Origin: Nocardia sp. BSTN01
GTDB lineage: Bacteria; Actinomycetota; Actinomycetes; Mycobacteriales; Mycobacteriaceae
Assembly: GCF_015354405.1 (NCBI RefSeq)
Contig: NZ_JADKYP010000014.1
Coordinates: 1 to 64,000, forward strand
Direction: 5' to 3'
Length of the DNA: 64,000 nt
Shown here: positions 1,031-7,035 of the stretch, in pieces
Layout of the letters: every line of letters starts with the position of its first letter
How positions within the stretch are numbered: position 1 is the first letter of the stretch
Position numbers and translations under genes: made by a program
The notes under the pieces: model-generated
The model's input: the letters and a program-made list of their open reading frames with translations, nothing else
What the model was told of the DNA's origin: nothing
Database searches by the model: none

Positions 1031-1350
1031 GGTTTAGGCAGTGCAGAGTCTGATCGACAGCTCCGGCACCCACATTGTCCGCCAAATAGTCAACGGCCTC
1101 GAAGGAGTTGCCGACATACCAGCGCTGGCAGCTGTCTCGGAAGCTTTAGTTCGACACCCGTCATCATTCGTACGCCGGTGGGCCATTGCCGCGTCCAGGT
1201 AATCACTGTCCTAGGGCGGTGACGGTTCGATGGTGCATCGTCCCGAGTCACTGCTGACGACTTACCGATTTCATTCCGCTTGCGCTGGCACGTCGACGAG
1301 GACGTGATGGTTCGCCGGATGGCGGTGACGAAGTCGCCGTGGTGGTGTGA
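1031..1350. other. Intergenic region without recognisable gene
   Basis: About 320 bases between the small frameshifted gene and the end of the ComJ-like gene. Short open frames on both strands have no recognisable motif and no convincing ribosome binding site. I see no strong hairpin. Confidence 0.4.
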
Positions 1351-2436
1351 TCAGGCGAAGTCGTGGTTCAGGAATTCGGTGCGGAGTCGAGTGATGAATT
1401 CTGGGTAGTCACGGCCGTATGTGGCGATGCCGGAGCGCACCGCTTCGAGCGCGGCTCTGATCGCGGTGATGTCGTTGCTGACGGCCAGCATGTAGGTTCT
1501 GGCGGCTTCGTACTGTGGGACGAAGTCGGTAGCTCCGGCGATGCCGGGTTCGATGGTCAGCGGTATGGCGGGGTCGGTTTGCAGGCGGTATGTGGTCAGT
1601 GAGTGGTTGGCGAAGTCCGGTGGTGGGGTGGTGCCGTGATCCATCGTGTCGAGGGCGGTGCGGAAGTCGTCGAACTCGACGAGGCCGCTGCGCTCGAAGG
1701 CGCGTCGCGCGCACCAGCGCGCGAGGGCCCGCAGGCGGTCTTCGGACAGGGCATCGATTTCATCGACTAGATCGCGGTCGAGGTCGGCGATTATCGAGGC
1801 GGCGGTGGAGATCGTGAGGTCCTCAGCGAGGCGTCCGGTGGGTGGGCGTCCGCCCCATCGGTTTCGCAGGGCGAAGACAGCCTGCGCTTCGGGGCTGTCG
1901 ATGGTGAACTTGGTCAGGGTCCCGTCAGGGCCTGGGGCATGGAAGTGTTCGTAGTCGACTTGCGGGAGTTGCTTCGTCGGCGGCTCGTGAGCGGTGTCGG
2001 TCTTTCGTAGCCGCGTGATCGAGTCTGTGGGGCGGGTTGTCGGGGTGATCTGGAGTAGGTACTGCTCGGTGGGTTCGGTGGCGATGCCGTCGAAGTCGAT
2101 ATCTCGGCCTCGGGCGTGCGCGCGTACGCGGTAGCGGCCGGCGGGGATGAGGGCGTATCCGTCGGCGACGCGACCATCGACGCTGAGCACTCGTAGGTCC
2201 TCGGGGGCATCGATCACGGTTTCTTCGACGGTTTCCCATTCCTCCAGCGCCGCGGTGGTGTCGTGGGTGTCGACTGTGAGGGTGGCTGGGCCGTAGGCGA
2301 TTCCGGTCAAGATGGTGACGAAGCCGGGGCCGGTCCAGATCAGGGTTCCTTCTGCGGTGACATCGGTGGTGTCGGTGCCGCTGCCGGCGAGCAGGAATTG
2401 ATGGTCGCTGACCTGGACGGTCCCGGTCTGGGTCAT
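1351..2436 (-). CDS. ComJ/Nin-like N-terminal domain protein, candidate nuclease inhibitor (immunity)
   Basis: A 361-residue protein with no signal peptide, so presumably cytoplasmic. Residues 1-130 have a SDHQF motif near residue 10, strand-rich segments, an ALEEWETVEE stretch and GRYRVRAHARGRD. This order resembles ComJ (Nin), the inhibitor of the Bacillus competence nuclease NucA, which carries SYHQF near its start and a G-x-Y segment late in the domain. Residues ~190-361 form an extra helical region I do not recognise. The gene lies 20 bases downstream of the NucA/NucB-type nuclease gene on the same strand, as expected for toxin plus immunity. The ATG start has AAGGGAG about nine bases upstream. 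The ComJ relationship is my reading of short motifs, not a database match; a generic hypothetical protein remains possible. Confidence 0.55.
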   Translation of the reverse strand: MTQTGTVQVSDHQFLLAGSGTDTTDVTAEGTLIWTGPGFVTILTGIAYGPATLTVDTHDTTAALEEWETVEETVIDAPEDLRVLSVDGRVADGYALIPAGRYRVRAHARGRDIDFDGIATEPTEQYLLQITPTTRPTDSITRLRKTDTAHEPPTKQLPQVDYEHFHAPGPDGTLTKFTIDSPEAQAVFALRNRWGGRPPTGRLAEDLTISTAASIIADLDRDLVDEIDALSEDRLRALARWCARRAFERSGLVEFDDFRTALDTMDHGTTPPPDFANHSLTTYRLQTDPAIPLTIEPGIAGATDFVPQYEAARTYMLAVSNDITAIRAALEAVRSGIATYGRDYPEFITRLRTEFLNHDFA

Positions 2437-2456
2437 TTAACTCACTCCCTTGGTGG

Positions 2457-4773
2457 TCAGGATCCCTTCACATAGAAGGTATCGCCGTCGAGTACGCGGT
2501 TTTTCACATAGAACCATCCGGTGATGCCGCCGCCGCGCATGTTGTCTCGCCCCGGCATCATGCACATACTGATCCCCGCCGCGTTCCAGAACGTCACCGG
2601 CACCGACAGGGGGACGACCCAGCCGCTGGGCATTCCTGTGGCACAGCTGCCCTGATAGGTCCTGGCCGGGCCGTTGGCGCCTCCGCCCTGGTTGGTGGAG
2701 GCGAAGGGGTATTCGTCGCACTGCTGGCCCGCCGGGCGGGGGCGCGGTACCCGGTTGCAGGAGATGTTGCGATTGTTCTGGATCTGGGCGTCGTTGGTAG
2801 TGCGGGTCAGCGGTGTGCCGTTCGGTGCTCCGGGAAGACCGCTGGCCTGGGCGTAGCCGATATGGCCGGACAGCGCGGGCACGTTGCGGGTGGTCATGTC
2901 CAAGATCGGTTCCGCGCCGGCGACGATGCAGCCGGAGGTGTTGCGGTTACCGACCTGATCGCAGCGAATCACCGGTGACACACCGGCCTTGGTGGTGACG
3001 GGGTTCGCATTGGATCCGGGCAGTGAGATCGTGAATTCGGCGAAGCCGTTGGTCCGCGAGATCGCTCCGATCCCCACCGGTGAGGACATGGTGTAGTCAC
3101 GCTGGTACGGCGTTTCGGCGACCGGGTGGGGCGGCTCGTTGTTGTTGAAATTGTGGCTGCAGCTACCGTCGCTGGTGCAGTAGACCGACATTGCGTATTG
3201 GGCGGCGTCGAGTCCTCCGGTGACGCCGGTTATGTGCAGGGCCGTGCGCACATTCCAGGTCGTGGAATTCCATGCAGTGGTGAGCTGGTTTTCCTGAACC
3301 ACTCCCAGCGTTCCCAACGGCGCGCCTGTTTCGCGGTCCAGCAGCGCCAATTGCCCTTCGCGCCACATGCATTGATACTTCCGATCGCCAGCCCACTGCC
3401 GGTGGGGAAGGTCCTTGCAGTACGGCTTGTCGAGCACGCTGGTCCAGCTTGCCTGCGGTGCCAGAGCCGGGGCCGGTTCGGGTCGGCACCAGCTGTAGCG
3501 GGGGTTGTCGCCGGTGTCGGTGGGCAGGTCCGTGCACAGCGGCAACTCGCCGAACATCTGCCCGGTGTCGGGCTGGCTCTTCGGTGCGAGGTCGGGCTGG
3601 GGGGCGTTGGTCCAGCCCGGCCCGGTCACCGCCACCCGATCGTCGTCACCACAACCGGGGCAGTTGCCGTCGTCGATGTAGTCCTCTTGCCAGTCGATAT
3701 CGTCGTCTTGCACCGCGGTGGTGGGCCAGCCGATGGTGCCGTATTGGAAGTCTTGATCGAAGGCTTGTCCGCGCTGCCTTTGATCCGACACCGGATACCC
3801 GTAGGGGCCTGCTTCGTAGTTCGTCATCGCCCATTTGGTCAAGATTCCGCCGGACGCCGGGTGCGCACCGGTCGAGGGGGACCAATAGATCATGCCGTGT
3901 TCGAACCGGTTGAACCGGCCGACGCCATCCGGCGCTACGGTTTCGTCGCTCGTCGGGTAGCCGAGATAGCCTGTTTCCCAGCCGGTTTCGCCCCACTTGT
4001 CGCGGATGGCGCCGGCGACGTAATAGGCGTCGTTGAGTTTCCAGTAGATCGTGCCGCCCTGGAAATACTGGCGGCGCCCGATATTGTCGGGGTTGACCAG
4101 CTCGTCGGAGGTCGGATAGCCGAGAACGCCTGCCTCCCAGCCGTTGCGCTGCCAAGCGGCGAAGAAGTGGTTGGCCACCGGATGCGCTCCACCGGCCGGT
4201 GACCAGTAAATCGGGCCGTTCTGGAATGTCGAGCGTTTCCCGACCCCGTCGGGGTTGGTCAGCTCGTTCGACGTCGGCCACAACAGGAAACTGTTCGGGC
4301 CGCCCAGCTCGTTGTATTTGTCGCGGATCGCGCCGCACACCTCATATGGCGCCGGCCAATACACCTGACACCCGGGTGTGGCCAGCGGTTGCGGCGCGCT
4401 CGCGGTCGCCTCCATGGTCTCGGCTTTGTCGGCCTGCTCCCTTGGTGAATCCGTCGGGCACCTTCTCCCGATCCGACCGCATTTTTCCAGGAACCACTGT
4501 GCGATTGGGGTTCTCGGTCGGCTTCCAGGCGCCCGCAGCCGGATTGTGCGGTGGTGTCGGCGCCGACTGTGGTGGGCTCGTCGGCCGCGGCGAGCCGGGT
4601 GGTGGGATGGAGCTGCTCGTCGGCGGTGGCGAGGAGGTCGGTGGTGGATCCGCAAGCGCTACACCGGCACCACCGGTGATCGTCAATGCGACAACGACCG
4701 CGGTGACGAAGGGACGCGCACGTACCGCACGGCGGCGGCCGGTGGCGGGGTAGTGAAGACGTGGTCGAGCCAT
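2457..4773 (-). CDS. Secreted LGFP-repeat protein with C-terminal NucA/NucB-type DNase domain (apparent frameshift)
   Basis: Translation from the ATG at 4773 (AGGGAGG upstream) gives a basic start, a hydrophobic segment TAVVVALTITGGAGVALA typical of a Sec signal peptide, and a Pro/Ser-rich linker. The frame then breaks at the CCC run 4439-4441. Deleting one base restores VPDGFTK-EQADKAETMEA and a ~770-residue protein. Four LGFP-type repeats follow, with GYPTSDE plus F-x-G-x-IYW patterns, a module that binds mycolate/arabinogalactan walls. The C-terminal ~120 residues contain CDEYPFAST, YQGSCATG and LDGDTFYV, matching the DNase_NucA_NucB pattern. I infer an exported, wall-associated nuclease for DNA degradation or contact toxicity. 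It is followed 20 bases later by the ComJ-like gene. The frameshift may be a sequencing error. Confidence 0.75.
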
Positions 4774-5451
4774 GACAACCTCCCTGATCTTCCCCAGTAA
4801 CGTTGCCGCTGAGCCGATTACGCGCTCGCGGCAACCGTCCACGACCATATCGAACATATGTTTGCCCTACTGGTGTGTTGCTGGTCGCGTGTCCGATATG
4901 TTGCGCGTCCGTTATGTCTGGATGTTGGCGCGGTAGCGGATATGACTGTGACTCAGCGGATTTAGGATTCCGTCCCACGAGCAAGGGGGAAATCGCCTTC
5001 AGCTGGGCCGGTTCGAATTCCGGAGGCAGTAGCAGCTTCCGGGCAGCGCTGCGTAGTGGTGTGCGCGGCCGGCGGTGTTCATGTTCGTTGCGCGGCAGTG
5101 CCTGCCGGGTGTTCCCGCTGCGGTCCGGGTCTACTGGCAGGCCAGTAGACGAGTGTGATCCCGCCGACCAGCCGGGATGTTGCTGTGCGCCGGAGTTTCC
5201 AGGTCCGCAGTCGCTACGATTTTCCGCCGACCGCGGTGCTCGAGGTGGTAAAGGACACGGATCGATCAGGCACCGGTGAATTCTGAGCGCCAGGCAATCT
5301 CGATGTCCGGAAAGCGTCGCTTGGCACACGGCTCGCCCTCGGACATCGTGATGTGGGATGGGAGGCCGCACATGTAAGGCCGGACGGCCGCGCTTTCGCG
5401 CCGCGCCCTTCTTCCGCGGAGTTGTTGCCGGCCGGTTCCAGGGGCGCGGTG
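4774..5451. other. Intergenic region between nuclease and nucleoside hydrolase genes
   Basis: About 680 bases that must hold the promoter of the nuclease operon. Open frames here, for example 4803-5279 on the plus strand, are Arg/Cys/Ser-rich and look like non-coding shadow. A short self-complementary CCGGTTCGAATTCCGG lies at 5008-5023 but does not belong to a tRNA. I see no gene. Confidence 0.4.
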
Positions 5452-6387
5452 TCAGATGAGGTGTGCGTAAATTTGTGCCATGACGCAGCCTATGACCTTG
5501 TCACCTTGGGCGGTGGTCGCCACAAGGGCGTTCGGTTCGGCTTTGCGGGGGACCCGGAGTTCGCAGATGGTTGCGCCGCGGCCGATGGTGCGGCTGAGTT
5601 CGACGTCGACCCGGGCAGGGGCGAGTTCGAACAGTTCAGGCCAGAGCAGGTAGGCGGCGGCGGAGGGATCGTGCAATGCCGCGGGCCGGGGTGTGTTCGG
5701 GTCGGTCATGCGTAGGTAGAAGCCGACGTGGTCGGCGACGATATCGGCGCGTTCGGTGCCGATGGTCCGCAGCTGGTGTTCGTGGTCGGGGGTGATGAGG
5801 ACTTGGCGGGTGAGGTTGAGGCCGAACATGCGCAGCGGCGCGCCGGAACGTAGTAACCCGTCGAGTGCTTCGGGGTCGGCGTAGGCGTTGAATTCGGCGG
5901 CGGCGGTGTGGTTGCCGCCGGTCGTCGAGCCGCCCATCCACACCACCGCGTCGATGGCGTCGACCAGTTCGGGGTGGAGCAGCAGCACCACGGCGATGTT
6001 GGTCAGGGGCCCGGTCGCCAGGATCGTGATCGACCTGGTCGCGGCCGAGCGCAGCGTCGAGGCCAAGGCGTGGATCGCGTCGACGGGCTCGGCGGCGCGC
6101 TGAGCGGCGGGGAAGCAGCGGCCCAGGGTACCCATGGCACCGGTGCCGAGGAGCCGTTCGATGGTTTGGGGCTCCTGCGCCAACGGTTTGGCAGCCCCGC
6201 GGTAGATCGGAGTGTCCAGTCCGCAGAACTCGGCGACGGCGAGGGTGTTGGCGGTGGTGTTGTCCAGGCTGGTATTGCCGACCACTGTCGATATCCCCAA
6301 CAGCTGGATCTGTGGTGCGCGCGCGAGCACCATCAACGCGAGTGCATCGTCGAACCCGCTATCGCAGTCCATCCACACAGAACGCAT
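5452..6387 (-). CDS. Nucleoside hydrolase (inosine/uridine-preferring family)
   Basis: A 311-residue protein, the usual size for ribonucleoside hydrolases that cleave the N-glycosidic bond of nucleosides to ribose and free base. The N-terminus has the calcium- and ribose-binding aspartate cluster MDCDSGFDDAL (residues 6-16), close to the family DxDxGxDD. Further on are ATGPLTNIA, VWMGGSTTGGNHT and AAEFNAYADPEA, matching the conserved core; the active-site aspartate segment near the C-terminus is LHDPSAA. The Pro of DCDPG is replaced by Ser. A GAGAGGGGG element precedes the ATG. It stands alone, with long flanking gaps on both sides, and probably serves nucleoside salvage in the cytoplasm. The exact base preference cannot be read. 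Confidence 0.9.
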   Translation of the reverse strand: MRSVWMDCDSGFDDALALMVLARAPQIQLLGISTVVGNTSLDNTTANTLAVAEFCGLDTPIYRGAAKPLAQEPQTIERLLGTGAMGTLGRCFPAAQRAAEPVDAIHALASTLRSAATRSITILATGPLTNIAVVLLLHPELVDAIDAVVWMGGSTTGGNHTAAAEFNAYADPEALDGLLRSGAPLRMFGLNLTRQVLITPDHEHQLRTIGTERADIVADHVGFYLRMTDPNTPRPAALHDPSAAAYLLWPELFELAPARVDVELSRTIGRGATICELRVPRKAEPNALVATTAQGDKVIGCVMAQIYAHLI

Positions 6388-7035
6388 GCATTTCCCCCTC
6401 TCTCACGCACCGCAGCAGGCAGCCGAGATGTTGATCGCCAGAAACGCCGCCTGTGCCACGAGAGCCGCGGCGCGGGGCCACAATATCGGGATCGGGACCT
6501 GGGTGGCGCCCAATTTCGGTGGGCCCAAGATGATGTCGTGCAGGATGGGGCTCGCGTGCGTGGGGCTCGATTGGCTCCGCAAGGCAAGGCCACCCGATAC
6601 CCGCGCGGGCTACTCGTCTCAACTGTCGCGCTGGTACCGCGCAACGAACCGCGCGCGCAATTGCTGCTGTAGGAACACAAAACGATGGCCGCTCTCCCGG
6701 AACACCAGTGACGAATCGTTCGACCGTTCGCCAGTGGGCGGTCGTCCGCGATGCCACTTTGGGCGCTGTCGGTGACAGCGGCAGCGTCGCCCGCGCCCGT
6801 GCCGACGGCGGGCTGGGTTTTGATCCGGAAGTCGTTGGTGTCTTCACATGCGCTCCCGTGGCACTGCTGCCCGTAACTGGTTGTGCTCGACTGTATTTCA
6901 CGCAGAAGTCGACCCGGCAGTATGTCAGTGGTACTCGGTGGAAACGGATGCCAATGTCGGTTCGGCCGGATACCGTGTGAGCGCGACAGATTCATGGTGC
7001 GGATGGTGCCGTCGTAGCGAGGAAGGGGGCGCGCG
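6388..7035. other. Long intergenic region, no gene recognised
   Basis: About 650 bases upstream of the nucleoside hydrolase and of the broken helicase gene. Frames on both strands are open for 100-300 codons but have the Arg/Pro/Ser-rich composition of high-GC shadow frames and no motif. Promoters for the two divergent neighbours should lie here; I could not define them. Confidence 0.4.

Follow-up and report, generated by a model that had tools for sequence, protein, structure and literature searches.

INTRODUCTION

Why does a Nocardia genome carry, side by side on one strand, a gene for a putative envelope-directed nuclease and a gene for a candidate inhibitor of that nuclease? In this study, we examine such a two-gene locus at positions 1,351 to 4,773 of a stretch of 64,000 nucleotides from Nocardia sp. 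BSTN01 (contig NZ_JADKYP010000014.1, positions 1 to 64,000; hereafter the window). A first-pass annotation, made from the letters alone, had read it as an exported LGFP-repeat nuclease of the NucA/NucB type with a dedicated ComJ-like immunity protein. To our knowledge, few protein weapons are known in bacteria with a mycolic-acid envelope. From the domain content, the recurrence of the pairing across the class and the exchange of C-terminal tails behind the LGFP head, we consider it probable that the locus is a toxin-immunity cassette of this mycolic-acid bacterium, working like those of the Tox-ComI/ComJ kind.

DOMAIN ARCHITECTURE

The locus is made up as follows (ORF, open reading frame; aa, amino acids; pLDDT, predicted local distance difference test score).

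1351..2436, minus strand: ComJ-like inhibitor gene, 361 aa (ORF listing; mean pLDDT of the structure model 91.4)
2035..2436, minus strand: predicted N-terminal ComJ-fold domain of the inhibitor, residues 1-134 (fold match to Bacillus subtilis ComJ, 4MQD)
1369..1899, minus strand: C-terminal helical domain of the inhibitor, about residues 180-356, no assigned family (DSSP of the structure model)
2437..2456, minus strand: gap from nuclease stop to inhibitor start, 20 bp (ORF listing)
2457..4655, minus strand: LGFP repeats, middle region and NucA/NucB domain in one frame, without a signal peptide as sequenced
2460..2975, minus strand: NucA/NucB-type tail (PF14040, 36.5 bits, match 2679-2816; DE dyad 2712-2717)
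2976..3665, minus strand: middle region, about 230 aa (no Pfam match; structure model pLDDT 32, unusable)
3666..4430, minus strand: conserved LGFP head, common to relatives with unrelated tails (PF08310, 226 bits)
4342..4857, minus strand: signal-peptide frame (ATG 4773, by eye) and Pro/Ser/Thr-rich linker, one base off the LGFP frame

The NucA/NucB-type domain proposed for the C-terminus is supported by PF14040, whose curated cut-off of 23.8 bits is exceeded, with the match confined to profile positions 12-63 of 100; the homologous tails of loci L044 and L140 cover positions 9-99 and 19-99, respectively. Residues D317, E318, N375 and H268 of the tail are invariant among six aligned sequences, window included. 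The metal-binding and catalytic residues of NucB are Asp, Glu and Asn, according to the part of the source available to us, which also gives the NucB motifs DRDE and DNRG (PMC5758888); in the window these read CDEY and DNMRGG, an equivalence judged by eye, and from the alignment the metal-binding and cutting residues of NucB appear to be kept. The fold model of the tail, built from six sequences only, reached a pLDDT of 32.

The partner protein has no Pfam or NCBIfam match at E<=1, and PF11033 (ComJ) has no match in the window's own genome at E<=10; a PADLOC search and a tblastn search of ComJ against plasmids gave no match. In the structure model, its N-terminal domain has the ComJ fold by comparison with the B. 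subtilis ComJ structure 4MQD, as its ComJ-like start had led the first-pass annotation to expect; two partial matches (L062 and L068) among the 18 inhibitor loci described below were omitted from the structure alignment. We file the inhibitor under the ComJ fold, as modelled, and not under PF11033; it is recognisable only by fold, and in the window protein and two tested relatives the ComJ-like domain is without a Pfam match above cut-off. No signal peptide was seen on the partner by eye. The helical domain is matched in distant proteins (for example, L011, L013 and L015), and it looks like an accessory because short partners consisting of the ComJ-like domain alone adjoin NucB elsewhere. The window's own genome holds a second ComJ-like domain (G000:C124:26294-26752, E 7.6e-13) in a frame of 365 aa.

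LINKAGE OF NUCLEASE AND PARTNER ACROSS THE CLASS

Among 394 genomes of the class, the window's genome included in each count, PF14040 is present in 32 (E<=1e-5) and the ComJ-like domain in 97 (E<=1e-4). A ComJ-like match occurs in 30/32 NucB genomes versus 67/362 others, so that the two genes are widely found together, as had been predicted. Eleven of the 32 NucB genomes contributed sequences to the ComJ-like profile (A4); without them a match remains in 19/21 NucB genomes versus 67/362, counts in which genomes of one lineage are not independent. With a profile that contained no sequences from the NucB loci, 10 of 29 were recovered (E<=5e-6), and one more at E 0.001. At least 22 of the 50 NucB matches have a ComJ-like domain within 1.5 kb, lying downstream in 21 cases (17 on the same strand, 4 convergent) and upstream in one. 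Moreover, NucB distances correlate with partner distances (r 0.89, 20 pairs, 0/5000 permutations), also with one Nocardia kept (r 0.79, 15 pairs, 0/5000 permutations); this mirror-tree correlation, which left out L043, shows joint inheritance, not binding. With the PF14040 cut-off passed, the partner ComJ-folded and the genes co-occurring, neither a missing domain match nor a lack of co-occurrence, the two outcomes named beforehand as fatal to the annotation, was encountered.

The two-gene block has a counterpart in Nocardia veterana (L051) with 89% identity over window positions 1349-4928, where the partner gene lies 16 bp downstream of the nuclease gene. Because of this identity, and because the pairing recurs across the class, the two-gene locus is more than chance. 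Outside Nocardia, a NucB tail sits on an LGFP-like head in L180 (by eye), and NucB tails sit on lectin-, carbohydrate-binding- or Ig-like heads in L176, L177, L178 and L186; L176 and L177 have ComJ-like genes downstream of NucB, and L186 is followed by an ankyrin protein.

EXCHANGE OF TAILS AND PARTNERS BEHIND THE LGFP HEAD

When 79 genomes of the genus were searched with the LGFP region, 67 matched at E<=1e-30, and 20 places, the window among them, stand apart at >=58% identity (>=54% by tblastn), the remainder being at about 50% or less. Tails were compared in 20 genes, namely the window gene, L051 and 18 of the 19 other head loci (L144, with a partial head, was dropped), whose heads are 57-96% identical to that of the window. 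Eight tails are NucB-homologous (L129 only through a second, frame-offset ORF), five form a group that is papain-like C92 by Pfam in both tested members (L131, L135), two form a group without an assigned family, and five are singletons, one of them (L137) with DUF6973. For the 16 genes with unsplit tails of at least 100 aa, no similarity between tails is seen in 89/120 pairs at E<=1e-4, nor in 57/120 at E<=10, where chance matches are admitted; a looser count over all 20 genes, in which the frame-split L129 and very short tails are counted as different, gives 158/190 pairs. Despite unlike tails the heads are up to 89% identical, as between L134 (C92 group) and L044 (NucB). One head with exchanged C-terminal domains is thus present, as expected of polymorphic toxins, and so is a candidate immunity gene directly downstream, the ComJ-fold partner, whose ORF (1351-2436, minus strand) begins 20 bp past the nuclease stop as first annotated.

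The partners change with the tail. In a second set of 18 head loci, with L144 included, the ComJ-like domain occurs at four, three with window-type NucB (L127, L128, L144) and one other (L138). Directly after the NucB gene of L140 comes an SMI1_KNR4 (SUKH) partner; in L048 (7280-8524) a ComJ-like domain is fused to SMI1_KNR4, after the NucB gene and one lipoprotein-like gene; and L044 and L129 have a small partner protein that is membrane-anchored by eye. Small proteins with a membrane-like start are seen beside NucB or ComJ-like genes at L044:5650-6186, L045:5899-6318, L129 and L019:7352-7630; by eye they share a short motif around PST/PTT..F..D, resembling a stretch inside the L044 LGFP-NucB protein. 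In L131-L135, the protein encoded after the LGFP head with papain-like tail is about 390-440 aa long and begins like a lipoprotein or membrane protein; the two may be a second toxin-partner pair. In L137 (2419-4104), the LGFP head with DUF6973 tail (66.9 bits) is followed by a 103-aa hydrophobic ORF, and the position of DUF6973 as the tail of an LGFP head suggests that it may be a toxin domain.

These exchanges bear on the view that nuclease and inhibitor act at the surface in DNA uptake or scavenging, like NucA-Nin in competent Bacillus; the wall-bound DNase would then cut external DNA for import or as food, and the inhibitor would tune it. Although the studied Bacillus pair is tied to competence in the portions of both sources at hand (PMC5758888, PMC3482391), and although predicted export and a predicted envelope-binding head would fit, the head bears non-nuclease tails in relatives, a SUKH domain replaces or joins the partner in two of them, PF14040 is patchily distributed (8/79 genomes of the relatives set described below) and inhibitor genes persist without the nuclease. 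We regard a role in uptake as unlikely.

RETENTION OF THE PARTNER AND POSSIBLE DECAY OF THE NUCLEASE

In the relatives set of 79 genomes, the window's own included, PF14040 matches 8 (7 of them above cut-off) and the inhibitor query matches 15. The inhibitor-side scan of named genomes yielded 18 loci, and at 8/18 the ComJ-like gene has NucB sequence immediately upstream: the domain is in an open frame in L051, L053 (at a contig edge), L055, L056 (headless) and L057, and only C-terminal NucB pieces are left in L052, L054 and L060. The flanks of the N. brasiliensis IFM 10847 locus (L057) are 94-96% identical to those of L058 and L059, from which a block of about 2.5 kb, matching the LGFP-NucB gene within 12 bp, is absent; the partner stays. 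In L018, L023 and L019, a NucB tip lies ahead of the partner; that of L019 adjoins an IS3-like transposase fragment (named by eye). Several loci bear two handles (L018/L052, L020/L056, L021/L058, L022/L067, L127/L057, L128/L055, L144/L053).

Two further kinds of ComJ-like gene were seen. L061 and L063-L067, at 32-34% identity, make up a subgroup of their own with no NucB found adjoining, hosted by Kitasatospora, Rhodococcus, Rhodococcoides, Williamsia and N. jejuensis. Another type in Nocardia, starting DYGQF, occurs in L026-L029, where tblastn found no NucB; in L027 and L029 it comes after a trpB-like gene (sequence reading).

It could also be argued that the nuclease is a housekeeping extracellular DNase for turnover of envelope or biofilm DNA, and that the inhibitor only guards the cytosol from activity before export. 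The NucB of Bacillus licheniformis is indeed a secreted, biofilm-degrading DNase, as the accessible part of PMC5758888 describes. However, patchy presence, tail swapping and inhibitor genes without any adjoining nuclease run counter to such a role, and it seems to us distinctly improbable.

The first-pass annotation took the nuclease for a single protein running from 4773 to 2457, which it is not: the signal peptide (by eye, ATG 4773) sits in ORF 4342-4857 on the minus strand, in a frame one base off that of LGFP-NucB, and both frames are open across 4342-4655. The LGFP repeats are there, although Pfam gives five stretches (E<=1) and not the four first counted. Because the frames are offset by one base while L051 has the same gene as a single 811-aa frame with the signal peptide in frame (by eye), the window gene is either broken or misassembled. 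Given the split nuclease gene, the antidote may be the only working component in this strain. The window could accordingly represent a decaying toxin, a nuclease pseudogene whose inhibitor alone is kept as protection from neighbours. In addition to the frame offset, the partner kept beside a shortened or missing nuclease in L052, L058 and L059, and further relatives with a split frame or no head (L129 and L056), speak for decay; against it, the LGFP-NucB frame is open for 732 codons with a third-position G+C of 0.80 (simple gene caller), its presumed catalytic residues are kept, and the source assembly is a draft of 206 contigs in which an assembly error is possible. We consider decay a serious possibility that falls somewhat short of an even chance, and it is compatible with the toxin-immunity reading, not opposed to it.

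One neighbouring gene was recorded; the DNA of 5448-6526 has a match upstream of the N. veterana cassette as well, at different spacing.

5452..6387, minus strand: inosine-uridine nucleoside hydrolase, upstream of the cassette (PF01156, 269 bits)

DISCUSSION

A toxin-immunity cassette would work as follows. The intact first gene would encode a Sec-exported protein that would attach to the cell envelope by its LGFP head and, by its C-terminal NucA/NucB-type domain, cut the DNA of rivals or siblings. The product of the second gene would stay cytosolic, where its N-terminal ComJ-fold domain would bind and block the nuclease, so that the producer and its kin survive. It seems that conflict, rather than competence or housekeeping, is the likely purpose because tails swap, partners change and the antidote is kept without the toxin. 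The toxin-immunity reading in the first-pass annotation gains from the swapped tails, the SUKH partners and the partner kept without nuclease, although it must now allow for a window copy that is split. A phage-lysin reading was rejected: the LGFP repeats match an endolysin family (phrog_2998, PHROGs), yet the tail is a nuclease.

Several observations weigh against a toxin-immunity cassette. Firstly, the window nuclease gene is not one open frame, and an envelope-bound DNase would still have to reach the target cytosol. Secondly, sequence profiles give no link from the partner to ComJ (A1, A2 and A4 found no ComJ in the PDB), and the nuclease-tail profile found no NucB structure there by sequence, only a chance talin match. 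Thirdly, the association is incomplete: no NucB sequence was found at 10/18 inhibitor loci (L058, L059, L061-L068), 28/50 NucB matches have no ComJ-like neighbour among the matches listed, and 67 genomes with ComJ-like genes lack PF14040 at E<=1e-5. Finally, L023 and L024 have a broken ComJ-like gene, the latter with NucB and partner both as fragments on opposite strands, and in L138 a ComJ-like gene is present, convergent, beside a head whose tail has no assigned family.

On a broader scale, bacteria with a mycolic-acid envelope may have an undescribed class of LGFP-headed polymorphic toxins that bind the envelope through the repeats and swap C-terminal enzymes (several NucB variants, a papain-like C92 amidase, DUF6973 and tails without an assigned family), and ComJ-fold proteins may be a widespread actinobacterial immunity superfamily against NucA/NucB, invisible to current profiles; we hold this joint proposal to be evenly balanced between right and wrong. 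The toxin-immunity reading would give a likely function to the ComJ-like domain found in 97/394 class genomes. Should the LGFP head act in delivery, protein toxins would have a new way into bacteria with a mycolic-acid envelope. How Nin/ComJ blocks NucA is an open question in the portion of PMC5758888 at hand, and the nuclease-inhibitor pairs named here allow it to be tested.

The locus was first called possibly undescribed, which needs qualification, as a NucA-ComJ toxin-immunity pair has already been proposed: in the available part of their paper, Zhang et al. (2012; PMC3482391) describe ComI (NucA) toxins with ComJ immunity proteins, suggest a possible origin of the Bacillus pair in such a system, and list SUKH, a known immunity superfamily, with Tox-ComI. 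Their Tox-ComI row includes Actinobacteria; their Imm-ComJ row does not, and that part of the text has no LGFP. Our literature search, which covered few subscription journals, found nothing on LGFP-headed polymorphic toxins or actinobacterial ComJ-like immunity. Like NucA-ComJ (Nin) of B. subtilis, the window combines a NucA/NucB-type nuclease with an adjacent ComJ-fold gene; unlike in that pair, its nuclease comes after an LGFP head and a middle region of 230 aa, and its inhibitor, which PF11033 does not reach, has an extra helical domain. It shares tandem repeats with LGFP-repeat surface proteins and endolysins (PF08310), for which wall anchoring is a proposal in the section of PMC3314691 at hand, and differs from them in that window-type repeats carry toxin-like tails. 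It also resembles the Tox-ComI/Imm-ComJ polymorphic toxins, in which, in the same part of PMC3482391, a ComJ or SUKH immunity gene comes after a nuclease tail and tails are swapped; in contrast to these, the head in the window consists of LGFP repeats and the inhibitor is recognisable by its predicted fold only.
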